64,000 nt of DNA, from NCBI GenBank assembly GCA_025924315.1, contig JAICIO010000010.1, forward strand, positions 1 to 64,000, written 5' to 3'. Under the pieces are notes generated by a model. That model searched no databases. It had not been told where the DNA came from and was given only the letters and a program-made list of their open reading frames with translations. Position numbers and translations under genes: made by a program. The stretch comes from Phycisphaerae bacterium. GTDB taxonomy: Bacteria; Planctomycetota; Phycisphaerae; Tepidisphaerales; Tepidisphaeraceae. Shown in pieces: positions 5,945 through 31,066 of the stretch. How positions within the stretch are numbered: position 1 is the stretch's first letter; every line of letters begins with the position of its first letter.

Positions 5945-6134
5945 GTCATTCTGAGCGCAGCGAAGAATCTCGGGATCGAAAGCGGTGCACGATATCGAGA
6001 TTCTTCGCTTCGCTCAGAGTCTGTGATTTTTTGCGTGGCGAGGGCGTCTCGCCCTCGCATTTGCGGCTACCGCCGCGTTCGCGAGGGCAAGATGCCCTCG
6101 CCACGCTGAAAAGATCACACGCTCTCAGGATGAC
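5945..6134. repeat. Composite: palindromic repeat interrupted by a second palindromic repeat
   Basis: Outer element: GTCATTCTGAGCGCAGCG...CGAGATTCTTCGCTTCGCTCAG at 5945-6017, resuming as CTCAGGATGAC at 6124-6134. An uninterrupted relative is at 31013-31066. The insert (6018-6123) has imperfect terminal inverted repeats beginning AG..TGTGAT and carries the GTGGCGAGGGC/GCCCTCGCCAC nested palindrome. CTCAG is present on both sides of the insert, like a target-site duplication. The whole gene-free gap 5925-6243 consists of this composite plus about 100 bp with no recognised feature. Confidence 0.8.
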
Positions 6135-6243: not shown

Positions 6244-7719
6244 GTGCAATACGGATTCGTCATCGATCATGAAAGCTGTATTGGTTGTCATGCCTGTACA
6301 GTCGCGTGCAAGTCGGAAAACCACGTCCCCGTCGGGAATTTTCGAACCTCGGTCAAATACGTCGAACAGGGACTTTTTCCCGACGTCCGCCGAATGTTCA
6401 TGGTGCAGCGGTGCAACCACTGCACGAACGCGCCGTGCGTCACGATCTGTCCCGTCAACGCGCTGCAGAAGCGCAAGGACGGCATCGTCGATCTCGATCG
6501 CGACGCCTGCATCGGCTGTCGCGCCTGCATGCAGGCGTGCCCGTACGACGCGATCTACCTGAACGACGATCTCGGCGCCGCGGAGAAATGCCACTTCTGT
6601 GCGCATCGCGTCGAGAAGAACCTCGAGCCGGCGTGCGTCGTGGTGTGTCCGGTCAATGCGATCATCCCCGGCGATTTTGAAGATCCCAACTCGCGCGTCT
6701 CGCAGTTGACCAAAGAAAAGCAGACGAAGGTTCGCCGCCCGGAGCAGGGAACCGGCCCGAACGTTCGCTACATCGGCGTCTCGGATGCGGCGCTGCATCC
6801 CGGCCGGCCGGCGCGACCGGAGACGTACCTCTGGAGCGATCGTCCGCCGCACAAACGCGAGCAGTGGCCGGTGTCGTTACCTGTTCTCAACGACGCGCTC
6901 GTCGTTCTCGACGCGGACCGTCGCGTCGAATGGGGCTGGGGCGTCGCACTTTATCTCGTCACCAAAGGCATCGGCGCCGGCGCGGCCATGCTCTCGCCCT
7001 TCGCGGGAATGCTGGGCCTGCGTGGTGGATCATTCAGCTACGGGCCGGAGATCGTCGCCCTGCTTTTCACGCTCATCACCTGCGGGCTGCTCGTTGAAGA
7101 TCTGAAAAAACCGTGGGCGTTTTACCGGATGCTCACGCGGCCGAATTTCAAAAGCTGGCTCGTGAAGGGCGGGATCATCCTGACGCTCTTTCAGATGACG
7201 CTCGTCGCGACGCTCGCTCTGCAATATTTTGGCGTGACGTCGGCGATCATGCCGCTGCGCGTGGTCAACGCCATCATCGGCCTCGGCGTCGCGGGTTACA
7301 CCGCGTTCCTCTTCGCACAATGCAACGGGCGCGATTTGTGGGAGAGCAAAGAGTGGCTTCTCCCGCATCTGCTGATTCAGGCGACGATGTGCGGCGCGAT
7401 CACTTTCCTCGTCTTCAATCCGCATTCATGGCCGCTGCGGATCATCGCGATTGTGACCGCTCTTCTTCACGTTGCTTTCGCGCTCCGGGAAAAGAATGGC
7501 GAGCATCACACGGAAAACGCCAGACAAGGCGCAGCATTCTTGAGCTACATCCGCTGCGGCCCACTGAACTGCTGGCGCGATGGCCTGTTCGTCGGAATCG
7601 CGATCGCGATTCTGTACATTCTGTTTGTGCCGCTCATCGCGTGGATTCCGCTGCTCGGTGCGCTGTTCCTCTATGAATATGCGTTCGTTCGCGCGGGACA
7701 GTTGCCACCGCTCTCTTGA
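6244..7719 (+). CDS. Four-cluster ferredoxin fused to an NrfD/DmsC-like membrane anchor
   Basis: 491 residues from GTG 6244, giving MQYGFVIDHESCIGC; a TTG 66 bp upstream is possible but adds a non-conserved leader. Residues 1-150 carry sixteen cysteines in four groups (C12/15/18/22, C57/60/65/69, C89/92/95/99, C116/119/131/135), the DmsB/PsrB pattern for four [4Fe-4S] clusters. From about residue 220 to the end there are about eight hydrophobic segments, as in the quinone-binding subunits of DMSO or polysulfide reductases. Normally these are two proteins. The next gene encodes the molybdenum subunit, so together they look like a complete quinone-linked complex. Confidence 0.85.
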   Translation: MQYGFVIDHESCIGCHACTVACKSENHVPVGNFRTSVKYVEQGLFPDVRRMFMVQRCNHCTNAPCVTICPVNALQKRKDGIVDLDRDACIGCRACMQACPYDAIYLNDDLGAAEKCHFCAHRVEKNLEPACVVVCPVNAIIPGDFEDPNSRVSQLTKEKQTKVRRPEQGTGPNVRYIGVSDAALHPGRPARPETYLWSDRPPHKREQWPVSLPVLNDALVVLDADRRVEWGWGVALYLVTKGIGAGAAMLSPFAGMLGLRGGSFSYGPEIVALLFTLITCGLLVEDLKKPWAFYRMLTRPNFKSWLVKGGIILTLFQMTLVATLALQYFGVTSAIMPLRVVNAIIGLGVAGYTAFLFAQCNGRDLWESKEWLLPHLLIQATMCGAITFLVFNPHSWPLRIIAIVTALLHVAFALREKNGEHHTENARQGAAFLSYIRCGPLNCWRDGLFVGIAIAILYILFVPLIAWIPLLGALFLYEYAFVRAGQLPPLS

Positions 7720-7732
7720 ATGGGAGATTTTT

Positions 7733-7789
7733 ACGAGCCGCGACCGTATGGGCGCGGACGCTGACCGCGCCCTTCCGGTCGCGGCTCGT
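7733..7789. repeat. Nested palindrome at the 5' end of the molybdopterin gene
   Basis: ACGAGCCGCGACCG (7733-7746) pairs with CGGTCGCGGCTCGT (7776-7789). Inside lies a second pair, GGGCGCGG with CCGCGCCC. It lies between the stop of the ferredoxin-anchor gene and the ATG at 7803, and would sequester or shape the leader of the second cistron. Confidence 0.8.
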
Positions 7790-7802
7790 GGGAAATTCGA
7801 TT

Positions 7803-10493
7803 ATGCCGTCGCACGATCCTGATCAGATGACCGTGACTCCGTTGGAGTCATTCCCGCCCGTCGATCAATGGGATGATTGGGTGGAGTACGACCCTGACGC
7901 ATGGCCGAGAAAGGTCGAAAGGCGCTACTCGCTCGTTCCGACTGTCTGCTTCAACTGCGAGGCCGCCTGCGGGTTGATGGCGTACGTCGACAAGAAGACG
8001 AACGAGATCTGCAAGCTCGAAGGCAACCCGCATCACCCCGGCTCGCGCGGAAAGAACTGCGCCAAGGGCCCCGCGACCATCAACCAGATCAACGACCCCG
8101 GCCGCATCCTTTATCCGCTGAAGCGCGTCGGTCCGCGCGGCAGTGGAAAGTTCGAGCGCACGACGTGGGATGAAGTGCTCGACACCTTCGCGGCGAAGAT
8201 CCGCAAGGCGCTTCTGGAGGATCGCAAAAACGAAATCATGTATCACGTCGGCCGCCCGGGAGAAGACGGATACGTGACGCGCGTGCTCCAGAGCTGGGGT
8301 GTCGATGCGCACAACTCGCACACGAACGTGTGTTCGTCATCCGCCCGCGTCGGTTACGCGCTGTGGTCCGGCGCCGATCGCCCGTCGCCCGATCACGCGA
8401 ACGCGAAGTTCATCCTGCTGCTCTCGTCGCACCTCGAGACCGGTCACTACTTTAACCCGCACGCGCAGCGAATCATCGAAGCGAAGAAACAAGGCGCGAA
8501 GATCTGCGTCGTCGACGTGCGCCTCTCGAACACCGCTTCGCACGCGAACTGGTGGCTCGCGACGTGGCCGGGCACCGAAGCGCTGCTTCTGCTCGCGTTC
8601 GCGCACGTGCTGCTCAACGAGAACCTCTTCAACCGAGAGTTTGTCGAGAAGTGGGTCAACTGGCAGGACTTCATGGCTCAGTACAAGCCGAATGTTCCCG
8701 CCACCTTCGATAACTTTGTCGAGGCGATTAAAGAACAATACGCCTTCGCGACGCCGGAGCGCGCCGCGGAGGAATGTGGCGTGAAGGCGGACCAGATCCG
8801 CGACATTGCGCGCGAGATTGGCAAGGCGGGCACCGCTTTCGCCTCGCACGTGTGGCGCAACGCCGCCTCCGGAAACCTCGGCGGGTGGCAGGTCGCGCGC
8901 TGTCTGCAGTTCATCACCGTGCTGATGGGCGCGGTGAACACGAAGGGCGGAACGCTGCAGAACTCGTACACGAAGTTCGTCCCCGCGCCGTTCAACAAGC
9001 CGCCGCCCCAGAAGGTGTGGAATGAGCTGCTCTATCCGCCCGAGTGGCCGCTCGCGTATCACGAGCTTTCGTTCCTGCTCCCGCACTTCCTCGAAGAAGG
9101 CCGTGGCAAAGTCTCGGCGTATTTCACGCGCGTTTACAACCCGGTCTGGACCAATCCCGACGGCATGATGTGGGAGCGCGTCCTGCGCGACGAATCGAAG
9201 ATCGAATTACACGCGGCCCTCACGCCGGTTTGGAACGAGACGGCACAGTACGCCGATTACGTCTTGCCGATGGGCAACGGCGCCGAGCGCCACGACCTCA
9301 TGAGCCAGGAGACGCAGGCGGCGAAGTGGATTGCGTTCCGCCAACCGGTTCTGCGCGTCCTCAAGGAGCGCGCCGGTGAAAAAGTCGAGTTCACCTGGCA
9401 GGCGAATCCCGGCGAAGTGTGGGAAGAGGCGGAATTCTGGATCGAACTTTCGTGGCGGATTGACCCGGATGGATCGCTGGGCGTGCGCAAGTTTTACGAG
9501 TCGCCTTATCGCACGGGCCAGAAGATCACGGTCGACGAATACTACGGCTGGATCTTCGAAAACTCCGTGCCCGGTCTTCCCGACGCCGCCAAAAAGGAAA
9601 ACCTCACGCCGCTTGAGTACATGAAGAAGTACGGCGCGTTTCTCGTCGAGAAAGACGTCTACGAAGGGCACGAAACGAAGGGTTTCAATACGCCGACGAA
9701 GAAGCTCGAGATCTTCAGCAAGACGATGCATGACTGGAACTGGCCGGACCAGGCGCTGCCGGCGTACATCGAAAGTCACGTTCATCGCAAAAATCTAGAT
9801 CGCAGTAAAAACGAGTTCGTGCTCGTGCCGACGTTTCGCCTGCCGACGCTGGTTCACACCCGCTCGGCCAACGCGAAGTGGCTTTACGAGCTCTCCAACA
9901 CCAATCCGGTGTGGATGCATCCGGATGACGCCGGGCCGCTCGGCATCAAGACTGGCGATCTTATTCGCGTCACCACGCGCATTGGACATTACATCAATAA
10001 GGCGTGGGTCACCGAAGGCATGCGACCCGGCGTCATTGCGTGCTCGCACCATCTCGGCCGCTGGCGATTGTTCGATGACGCCGGCGTCGATAAATGGGCG
10101 AGCTCGAAGGTGAACCGCGAAGAAACCACACCCGGCGTGTATCGCTTCCGCCGCGTCGAAGACGTTCACCCGTACAAGAGCAAGGACCCCGACACCGAGC
10201 GGATCTGGTGGACCGACGGCGGCGTGCACCAGAACCTCACCTTTTGCGTGCAGCCCGATCCGATCTCCGGCATGCACTGCTGGCACCAGCGCGTAACGGT
10301 CAGCAAAGCACAGCCGGGCGATGAGTACGGCGACATCGTCGTCGACACGAACAAGTCGATGGAGGTTTATCGCGAGTGGCTGAAGATCACGCGACCGGGT
10401 CCTGGTCCCGGCCCGGACAACCAAAAGCTTCGTCGCCCCCTGTGGCTCGACCGGGCCGTCAAGCCGGCGCCCGAAGCGTACGTCGTGACGTGA
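7803..10493 (+). CDS. Molybdopterin oxidoreductase, catalytic subunit (DMSO reductase family)
   Basis: 896 residues from ATG 7803; 7827 is a second in-frame ATG. A longer frame from 7716 would translate the palindrome. An N-terminal [4Fe-4S] site is formed by C49, C52, C56 and C86. Cys177 in NVCSSSARVGY is at the position of the molybdenum ligand in formate-dehydrogenase and Nap-type enzymes. The C-terminal part (about 670-800) is the molybdopterin-dinucleotide-binding domain (NPVWMHPDDAGPLGIKTGD). No twin-arginine signal is visible, so the catalytic side may be cytoplasmic. Substrate unknown; formate, nitrate or a sulfur compound are all possible. moaB is about 11 kb downstream. Confidence 0.88.
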   Translation: MPSHDPDQMTVTPLESFPPVDQWDDWVEYDPDAWPRKVERRYSLVPTVCFNCEAACGLMAYVDKKTNEICKLEGNPHHPGSRGKNCAKGPATINQINDPGRILYPLKRVGPRGSGKFERTTWDEVLDTFAAKIRKALLEDRKNEIMYHVGRPGEDGYVTRVLQSWGVDAHNSHTNVCSSSARVGYALWSGADRPSPDHANAKFILLLSSHLETGHYFNPHAQRIIEAKKQGAKICVVDVRLSNTASHANWWLATWPGTEALLLLAFAHVLLNENLFNREFVEKWVNWQDFMAQYKPNVPATFDNFVEAIKEQYAFATPERAAEECGVKADQIRDIAREIGKAGTAFASHVWRNAASGNLGGWQVARCLQFITVLMGAVNTKGGTLQNSYTKFVPAPFNKPPPQKVWNELLYPPEWPLAYHELSFLLPHFLEEGRGKVSAYFTRVYNPVWTNPDGMMWERVLRDESKIELHAALTPVWNETAQYADYVLPMGNGAERHDLMSQETQAAKWIAFRQPVLRVLKERAGEKVEFTWQANPGEVWEEAEFWIELSWRIDPDGSLGVRKFYESPYRTGQKITVDEYYGWIFENSVPGLPDAAKKENLTPLEYMKKYGAFLVEKDVYEGHETKGFNTPTKKLEIFSKTMHDWNWPDQALPAYIESHVHRKNLDRSKNEFVLVPTFRLPTLVHTRSANAKWLYELSNTNPVWMHPDDAGPLGIKTGDLIRVTTRIGHYINKAWVTEGMRPGVIACSHHLGRWRLFDDAGVDKWASSKVNREETTPGVYRFRRVEDVHPYKSKDPDTERIWWTDGGVHQNLTFCVQPDPISGMHCWHQRVTVSKAQPGDEYGDIVVDTNKSMEVYREWLKITRPGPGPGPDNQKLRRPLWLDRAVKPAPEAYVVT

Positions 10494-10500
10494 ATCTTTG

Positions 10501-10574
10501 ACGTGGCGAGGGCATCTTGCCCTCTCATTCGCGGCTGTAGCCGCACGCGCGAGGGCGAGACGCCCTCGCCACGT
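10501..10574. repeat. Nested palindrome, GTGGCGAGGGC family
   Basis: ACGTGGCGAGGGCATCTTGC at the left and GGGCGAGACGCCCTCGCCAC plus GT at the right are inverted, with an inner GCGGCTGTAGCCGC hairpin between them. It is the same core as the insert at 6018-6123, but the outer terminal repeats differ. It sits between two convergent genes. Confidence 0.85.
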
Positions 10575-31012: not shown

Positions 31013-31066
31013 GTCATCCTGAGCGCAGCGAAGGATCTCGAGATTCTTCGCTGCGCTCAGAATGAC
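31013..31066. repeat. Palindrome GTCATCCTGAGCGCAGCG, uninterrupted copy
   Basis: GTCATCCTGAGCGCAGCGAA and the inverted TTCGCTGCGCTCAGAATGAC surround GGATCTCGAGATTC. It is a 54-bp palindrome of the same family as the interrupted element at 5945-6134 and serves as its intact reference. It lies between two convergent genes. Confidence 0.9.

Follow-up and report, generated by a model that had tools for sequence, protein, structure and literature searches.

How did a 106-bp segment come to lie inside a palindromic repeat at positions 5945-6134 of the window (the whole 64,000-nt stretch of Phycisphaerae DNA analysed here), and what moved it there? The locus reads GTCATTCTGAGCGCAGCGAAGAATCTC - spacer - GAGATTCTTCGCTTCG-CTCAG - (106 bp) - CTCAG-GATGAC: a 79-bp repeat dimer has its right arm split by the insert (6018-6123), CTCAG can be read from the sequence at both junctions (6013-6017 and 6124-6128), and GATGAC (6129-6134) follows the second of these. 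Excision of the insert together with one CTCAG restores a 79-bp outer repeat, the commonest intact dimer length (11 of 15 in a 560-kb sample). The insert ends are imperfect inverted repeats (AGTCTGTGATTTTTT--GCGTGGCGAGGGC vs AGCGTGTGATCTTTTCAGCGTGGCGAGGGC), and the insert can fold as a long hairpin. A first-pass annotation had described the same junctions and ends, with which the sequence agrees exactly, and had related the outer repeat to a 54-bp copy at 31013-31066, which is indeed the same repeat, intact and without the spacer. The features are as follows.

5945-5971, plus strand: left REP-like unit of the outer dimer, GTC-ATTCT-GAGCGCAGCGA-AGAAT-CTC (sequence; unit structure from within-arm stem covariation)
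5972-5996, no strand: spacer between the two inverted units (sequence)
5997-6017, minus strand: proximal part of the right unit, ending in the first CTCAG (sequence)
6013-6017, no strand: target-site duplication, copy 1, CTCAG (sequence and genome-wide copies)
6018-6123, no strand: inserted 106-bp probable MITE, family A (genome-wide copies)
6018-6032, plus strand: left terminal inverted repeat, AGTCTGTGATTTTTT (end pattern and end comparison)
6034-6105, no strand: palindromic core A (CGTGGCGAGGGC...GCCCTCGCCACG), also found outside the MITE
6109-6123, minus strand: right terminal inverted repeat, AGCGTGTGATCTTTT on the minus strand (end pattern and end comparison)
6124-6128, no strand: target-site duplication, copy 2, CTCAG (sequence and genome-wide copies)
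6129-6134, minus strand: displaced head of the right unit, GATGAC (sequence)
10502-10573, no strand: core A palindrome on its own, with neither terminal repeats nor CTSAG flanks
31013-31066, no strand: outer dimer, intact and lacking the spacer; ATCCT/AGGAT in the left arm and ATTCT/AGAAT in the right

Unit structure of the outer repeat

The outer repeat had been taken for a palindromic element; the repeat is real, but it is better described as a pair of inverted hairpin units. Its arms have the form GTC-ATYCT-GAGCGMAGCGA-AGRAT-CTC, and their stems covary: ATCCT is found with AGGAT (n=22) and ATTCT with AGAAT (n=7), mixed arms are absent, and five arms are otherwise changed, a count that cannot be read as a probability because the copies are related to one another. 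The two arms are unlike in several dimers, including the 31013 copy with its C-type left and T-type right arm. Covariation within arms, together with the difference between the arms of one dimer, points to the single arm as the unit, as in REP dimers, with a stem of 5 bp and a loop of 11 nt. This unit structure rests on covariation; one isolated arm folded no better than shuffles, and folding alone lends no support to the stability of a single-arm hairpin.

In the wide sense the outer repeat resembles a REP, being a short palindromic unit with many copies and frequent inverted dimers (an estimated ~176 intact ones genome-wide). The published CGTC class of REPs is defined by its tag and stem lengths (PMC3733652). 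By that definition the outer repeat falls outside the class: C precedes GTC in 13 of 38 arms, which does not amount to an unpaired CGTC tag, and the short stem and long loop depart from the 8-9 bp and 4-5 nt of that class. No linked RAYT gene was found, the motif being absent near the examined Y1 genes of this genome; nor was a flanking duplication found around outer dimers, and the repeat sequence gave only two matches, both unrelated, in the open-licence literature. We call the outer repeat REP-like.

A modular insert family at one site

About 51 distinct elements with the ends AGNNTGTGANNTTTT are present in the genome, as counted by hand once duplicates shifted in frame and weak chance rows in the script output had been dropped; the end pattern gave 108 matches, compared to 0 for a reversed-pattern control. 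A 116-bp junction-to-junction query recovered six identical copies and ~34 further places on the same strand sense, the palindrome making every copy match the opposite strand too. The copies sit in unrelated flanks, in differing outer copies with differing spacers, and ~46 of the 51 occupy one CTSAG position of the outer repeat, in different outer-repeat copies (background frequency of CTSAG, once per ~970 bp). Eighteen elements lie in the left arm and 20 in the right, five have replaced the dimer interior, and eight are placed otherwise, ~4 of these in outer copies that are diverged or truncated. Where the insertion into an arm is clean and both arms survive, the flanking 5-mers are identical in 33 of 38 cases, as direct repeats. 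A chance match of CTCAG is ruled out by these genome-wide copies in unrelated flanks and different outer copies. The original reading of the locus, a trace of transposition by a family moving as a discrete unit, is thus upheld by the very comparison proposed for it: a collection of all copies shows ~51 of them with common ends and duplicated CTSAG, and in other phyla there are full-length copies that carry a transposase between the same ends and show the same duplication. New relative to the first-pass annotation are the site-specific insertion into one repeat family, the differing cores between common ends and the likely IS1182-family source.

The palindrome reported within the insert is present; it belongs, though, to a third repeat family (GTGGCGAGGGC), which also occurs alone, as in the 72-bp core A copy without transposon ends in an intergenic gap at 10502-10573. 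Cores A and B are unrelated palindromes, with the ends all that they have in common, and the elements measure 63-109 bp with core A and 116-117 bp with core B. The inner family is therefore modular: two or more unrelated palindromes, each of which also occurs alone, serve as cores between the same ends. Core-A elements mostly point one way with respect to the arm (18 against 3, counted by hand, with a binomial computed). Elsewhere in the window, a short core-B-like palindrome at 7735-7787 (GAGCCGCGACCGTATGGGCGCGG...CCGGTCGCGGCTC) overlaps the start of the 7716-10493 ORF, whose true start is probably downstream.

As short (63-117 bp), multicopy elements without a transposase gene, with terminal inverted repeats and a target-site duplication, the inserts have the characters of MITEs. 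Across 397 genomes of the class, the exact ends were found only in the own genome and two family members, apart from one isolated match. In one genome of the same bacterial family (G016, contig 164), two 94-bp elements with AGNNTGTGANNTTTT-type ends lie inside a longer inverted repeat at CTGAG/CTCAG.

IS1182-family relatives and competing readings

No match to an IS1182 transposase, and hence no autonomous partner of the elements, was found in the own genome; this is a draft assembly of 262 contigs, so that the gene may be lost or unassembled. A DDE_Tnp_1 mover encoded by the same genome was rejected, no such gene being found there, and the only rve gene belongs to an IS481 element whose ends differ. 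G016 carries an IS1182 fragment (56% identity), a relic that runs into ...AATCACGGGCTGTCAGGATGAC, which corresponds to an end-like sequence plus the outer-repeat head GTCAGGATGAC.

Autonomous elements with matching ends do exist in other genomes. A scan of 84,980 genomes with ATYCTGAG joined to the element end yielded 92 stretches in Acidobacteria, Deltaproteobacteria, Reyranella (Alphaproteobacteria), Rhodospirillales, Chloroflexi and others, most of them short elements and some full transposons; CTGAG stood in direct repeat in 22 of the 23 copies that were unique and resolved. Full-length copies came from Granulicella sp. S156 (1503 bp), a Dehalococcoidia MAG (1659 bp) and a Terriglobia MAG (1555 bp), all three with CTGAG on either side, within GTCATCCTGAGCG, and with transposases scoring 305.6, 331.3 and 319.7 bits, respectively, against the NCBIfam IS1182 cut-off of 270. 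Proteins of five relatives passed this cut-off (NF033551; 306-372 bits). Only ~15 bp at the ends are common to the MITEs and the autonomous elements.

Because the scan demanded the ATYCTGAG prefix, it cannot by itself measure a preference for REPs, and IS1182 relatives found by protein alone were therefore also taken. Seven such copies on rhizobial plasmids, unselected for site, have the ends AGNNTGTGAN and are flanked by identical CTSAG (5/7) or by GTCAG/CTCAG (2/7). Four of them lie inside a rhizobial CTCATCCTGAG-type REP-like repeat and three in no recognisable REP (repeats assigned by eye; right end of L295 read from the printed sequence). This division suggests that insertion requires the CTSAG core and, beyond that, prefers a REP-like hairpin as its surroundings, so that REP specificity is one of preference. 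More distantly related IS1182 copies from the class of the own genome (L251, L253) were set aside, as their ends differ.

With the same ends and the CTSAG target found around IS1182-family transposases in other bacteria, the 106-bp segment is very probably a non-autonomous MITE, mobilised in trans by an IS1182-family DDE transposase for which REP-like hairpins are favoured targets. At the level of sequence, the common ends, the direct CTSAG duplications, the single fixed position within the outer repeat, and the IS1182 genes at like sites elsewhere are established; from them we infer that an enzyme of IS1182 type, now lost or unassembled, moved the copies of the own genome. Such a transposase would recognise the AGNNTGTGANNTTTT ends in trans and cut its target at the 5-bp palindromic core CTSAG, duplicating it. 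REP-like hairpins with GTCATYCTGAG would be favoured, so that the MITE family would accumulate inside the outer repeat, and the hairpin itself, beyond its sequence, may be what is recognised.

Five copies (L018, L022, L023, L025 and L027) show a different arrangement, CTGAG-insert-CTCAG, in which the insert replaces the dimer interior. Removal of a target inverted repeat with no duplication, as known for IS1272, fits these five of the ~51 copies and does not fit most of them. They could also have arisen by two ordinary insertions, one per arm, followed by recombination, a route we consider credible at somewhat below even probability. Two dimers (L070, L077) do carry inserts, differently cored, in both arms, but, by a rough estimate, only ~1.5 double hits of core A with core A would be expected, against five replacements (P ~0.017, and lower still if orientation is counted), and no unrecombined A/A double was present in the set classified. 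The low expectation favours stem-loop replacement without proving it. We tentatively suggest that one IS1182-type system might yield two products at the same target: a 5-bp duplication where a single arm is attacked, or an exact replacement of the interior where the inverted pair is extruded as a cruciform. If this is true, the repeats are a natural record joining ordinary insertion to stem-loop replacement.

It is very unlikely that a Y1 (RAYT, TnpA-REP) transposase instead moved the inner segment as a REPIN-like single-stranded element, with CTSAG as a cleavage motif, one copy of it being part of the element, and no duplication. About ten Y1_Tnp genes in the own genome, next to one rve and no DDE_Tnp_1 gene, and the long hairpin that the insert can form are in keeping with such a mover. 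Against it, no outer-repeat, end or core motif occurs at a distance of up to 1.5 kb from those Y1 genes of this genome that were examined, the full-length relatives with the same ends encode IS1182 transposases rather than Y1, and the ends are terminal inverted repeats common to unrelated interiors. Joint amplification of outer repeat and insert as one compound repeat, after a single insertion event, would account for the six copies 100% alike across the 116-bp stretch, but is refuted by divergent spacers (from copy to copy the outer arms and spacers vary, but the insert hardly changes), with inserts in either arm and unrelated cores at the same site.

Relation to known systems

The MITE reading joins elements that are already known separately, namely REP-targeting ISs (PMC1525189), MITEs and palindrome-targeting IS1182 members. 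IS1272, of the IS1182 family, replaces target inverted repeats without duplication, and its targets have no common sequence (PMC5678879). The present system shares with it the transposase family of the autonomous relatives and an inverted repeat as target, and the five replacement copies resemble the published stem-loop replacement; in contrast to newly inserted IS1272, most copies here keep their target, which has a common sequence, and duplicate 5 bp (CTSAG). The REP-targeting ISPsy8, ISPa11, ISPpu9/10 and ISRm19/22, and also IS1397 and IS621 (PMC1525189), interrupt a REP at one fixed position with every copy, a habit that the present elements share; those, however, are full transposons, whereas most elements here are MITEs of 63-117 bp, linked to an IS1182-family transposase. 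In A. variabilis and H. neapolitanus, REP dimers lie inside palindromes (PMC3733652), likewise a regular nesting of two palindromic repeats. In those cases the REP forms the interior, while in the present system the REP-like unit serves as the target for an inner part that ends like a transposon and has a 5-bp duplication. In the open-licence literature searched, we found neither a modular family of MITEs duplicating CTSAG within REP-like hairpins and tied to a cross-phyla IS1182 subgroup nor, among the papers listed, any joint treatment of IS1182 and REP sequences.

These repeats provide a large natural data set, with tens of insertions from several phyla all at one defined base position, which bears on hairpin target choice by IS1182 elements and on duplication versus replacement. 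Three repeat layers are nested in them, a stand-alone palindrome between transposon ends and these in turn inside a REP-like hairpin, which helps to explain the origin of complex intergenic repeat mosaics. A second IS family has the same hairpin as its target: the IS481 element (NCBIfam NF033577) with the sole rve gene of the genome (L137; G000 contig 90, reverse complement, ~925-2300) is inserted in an outer-repeat copy with a 6-bp duplication, GCTTCG, a few bases from the CTSAG site.
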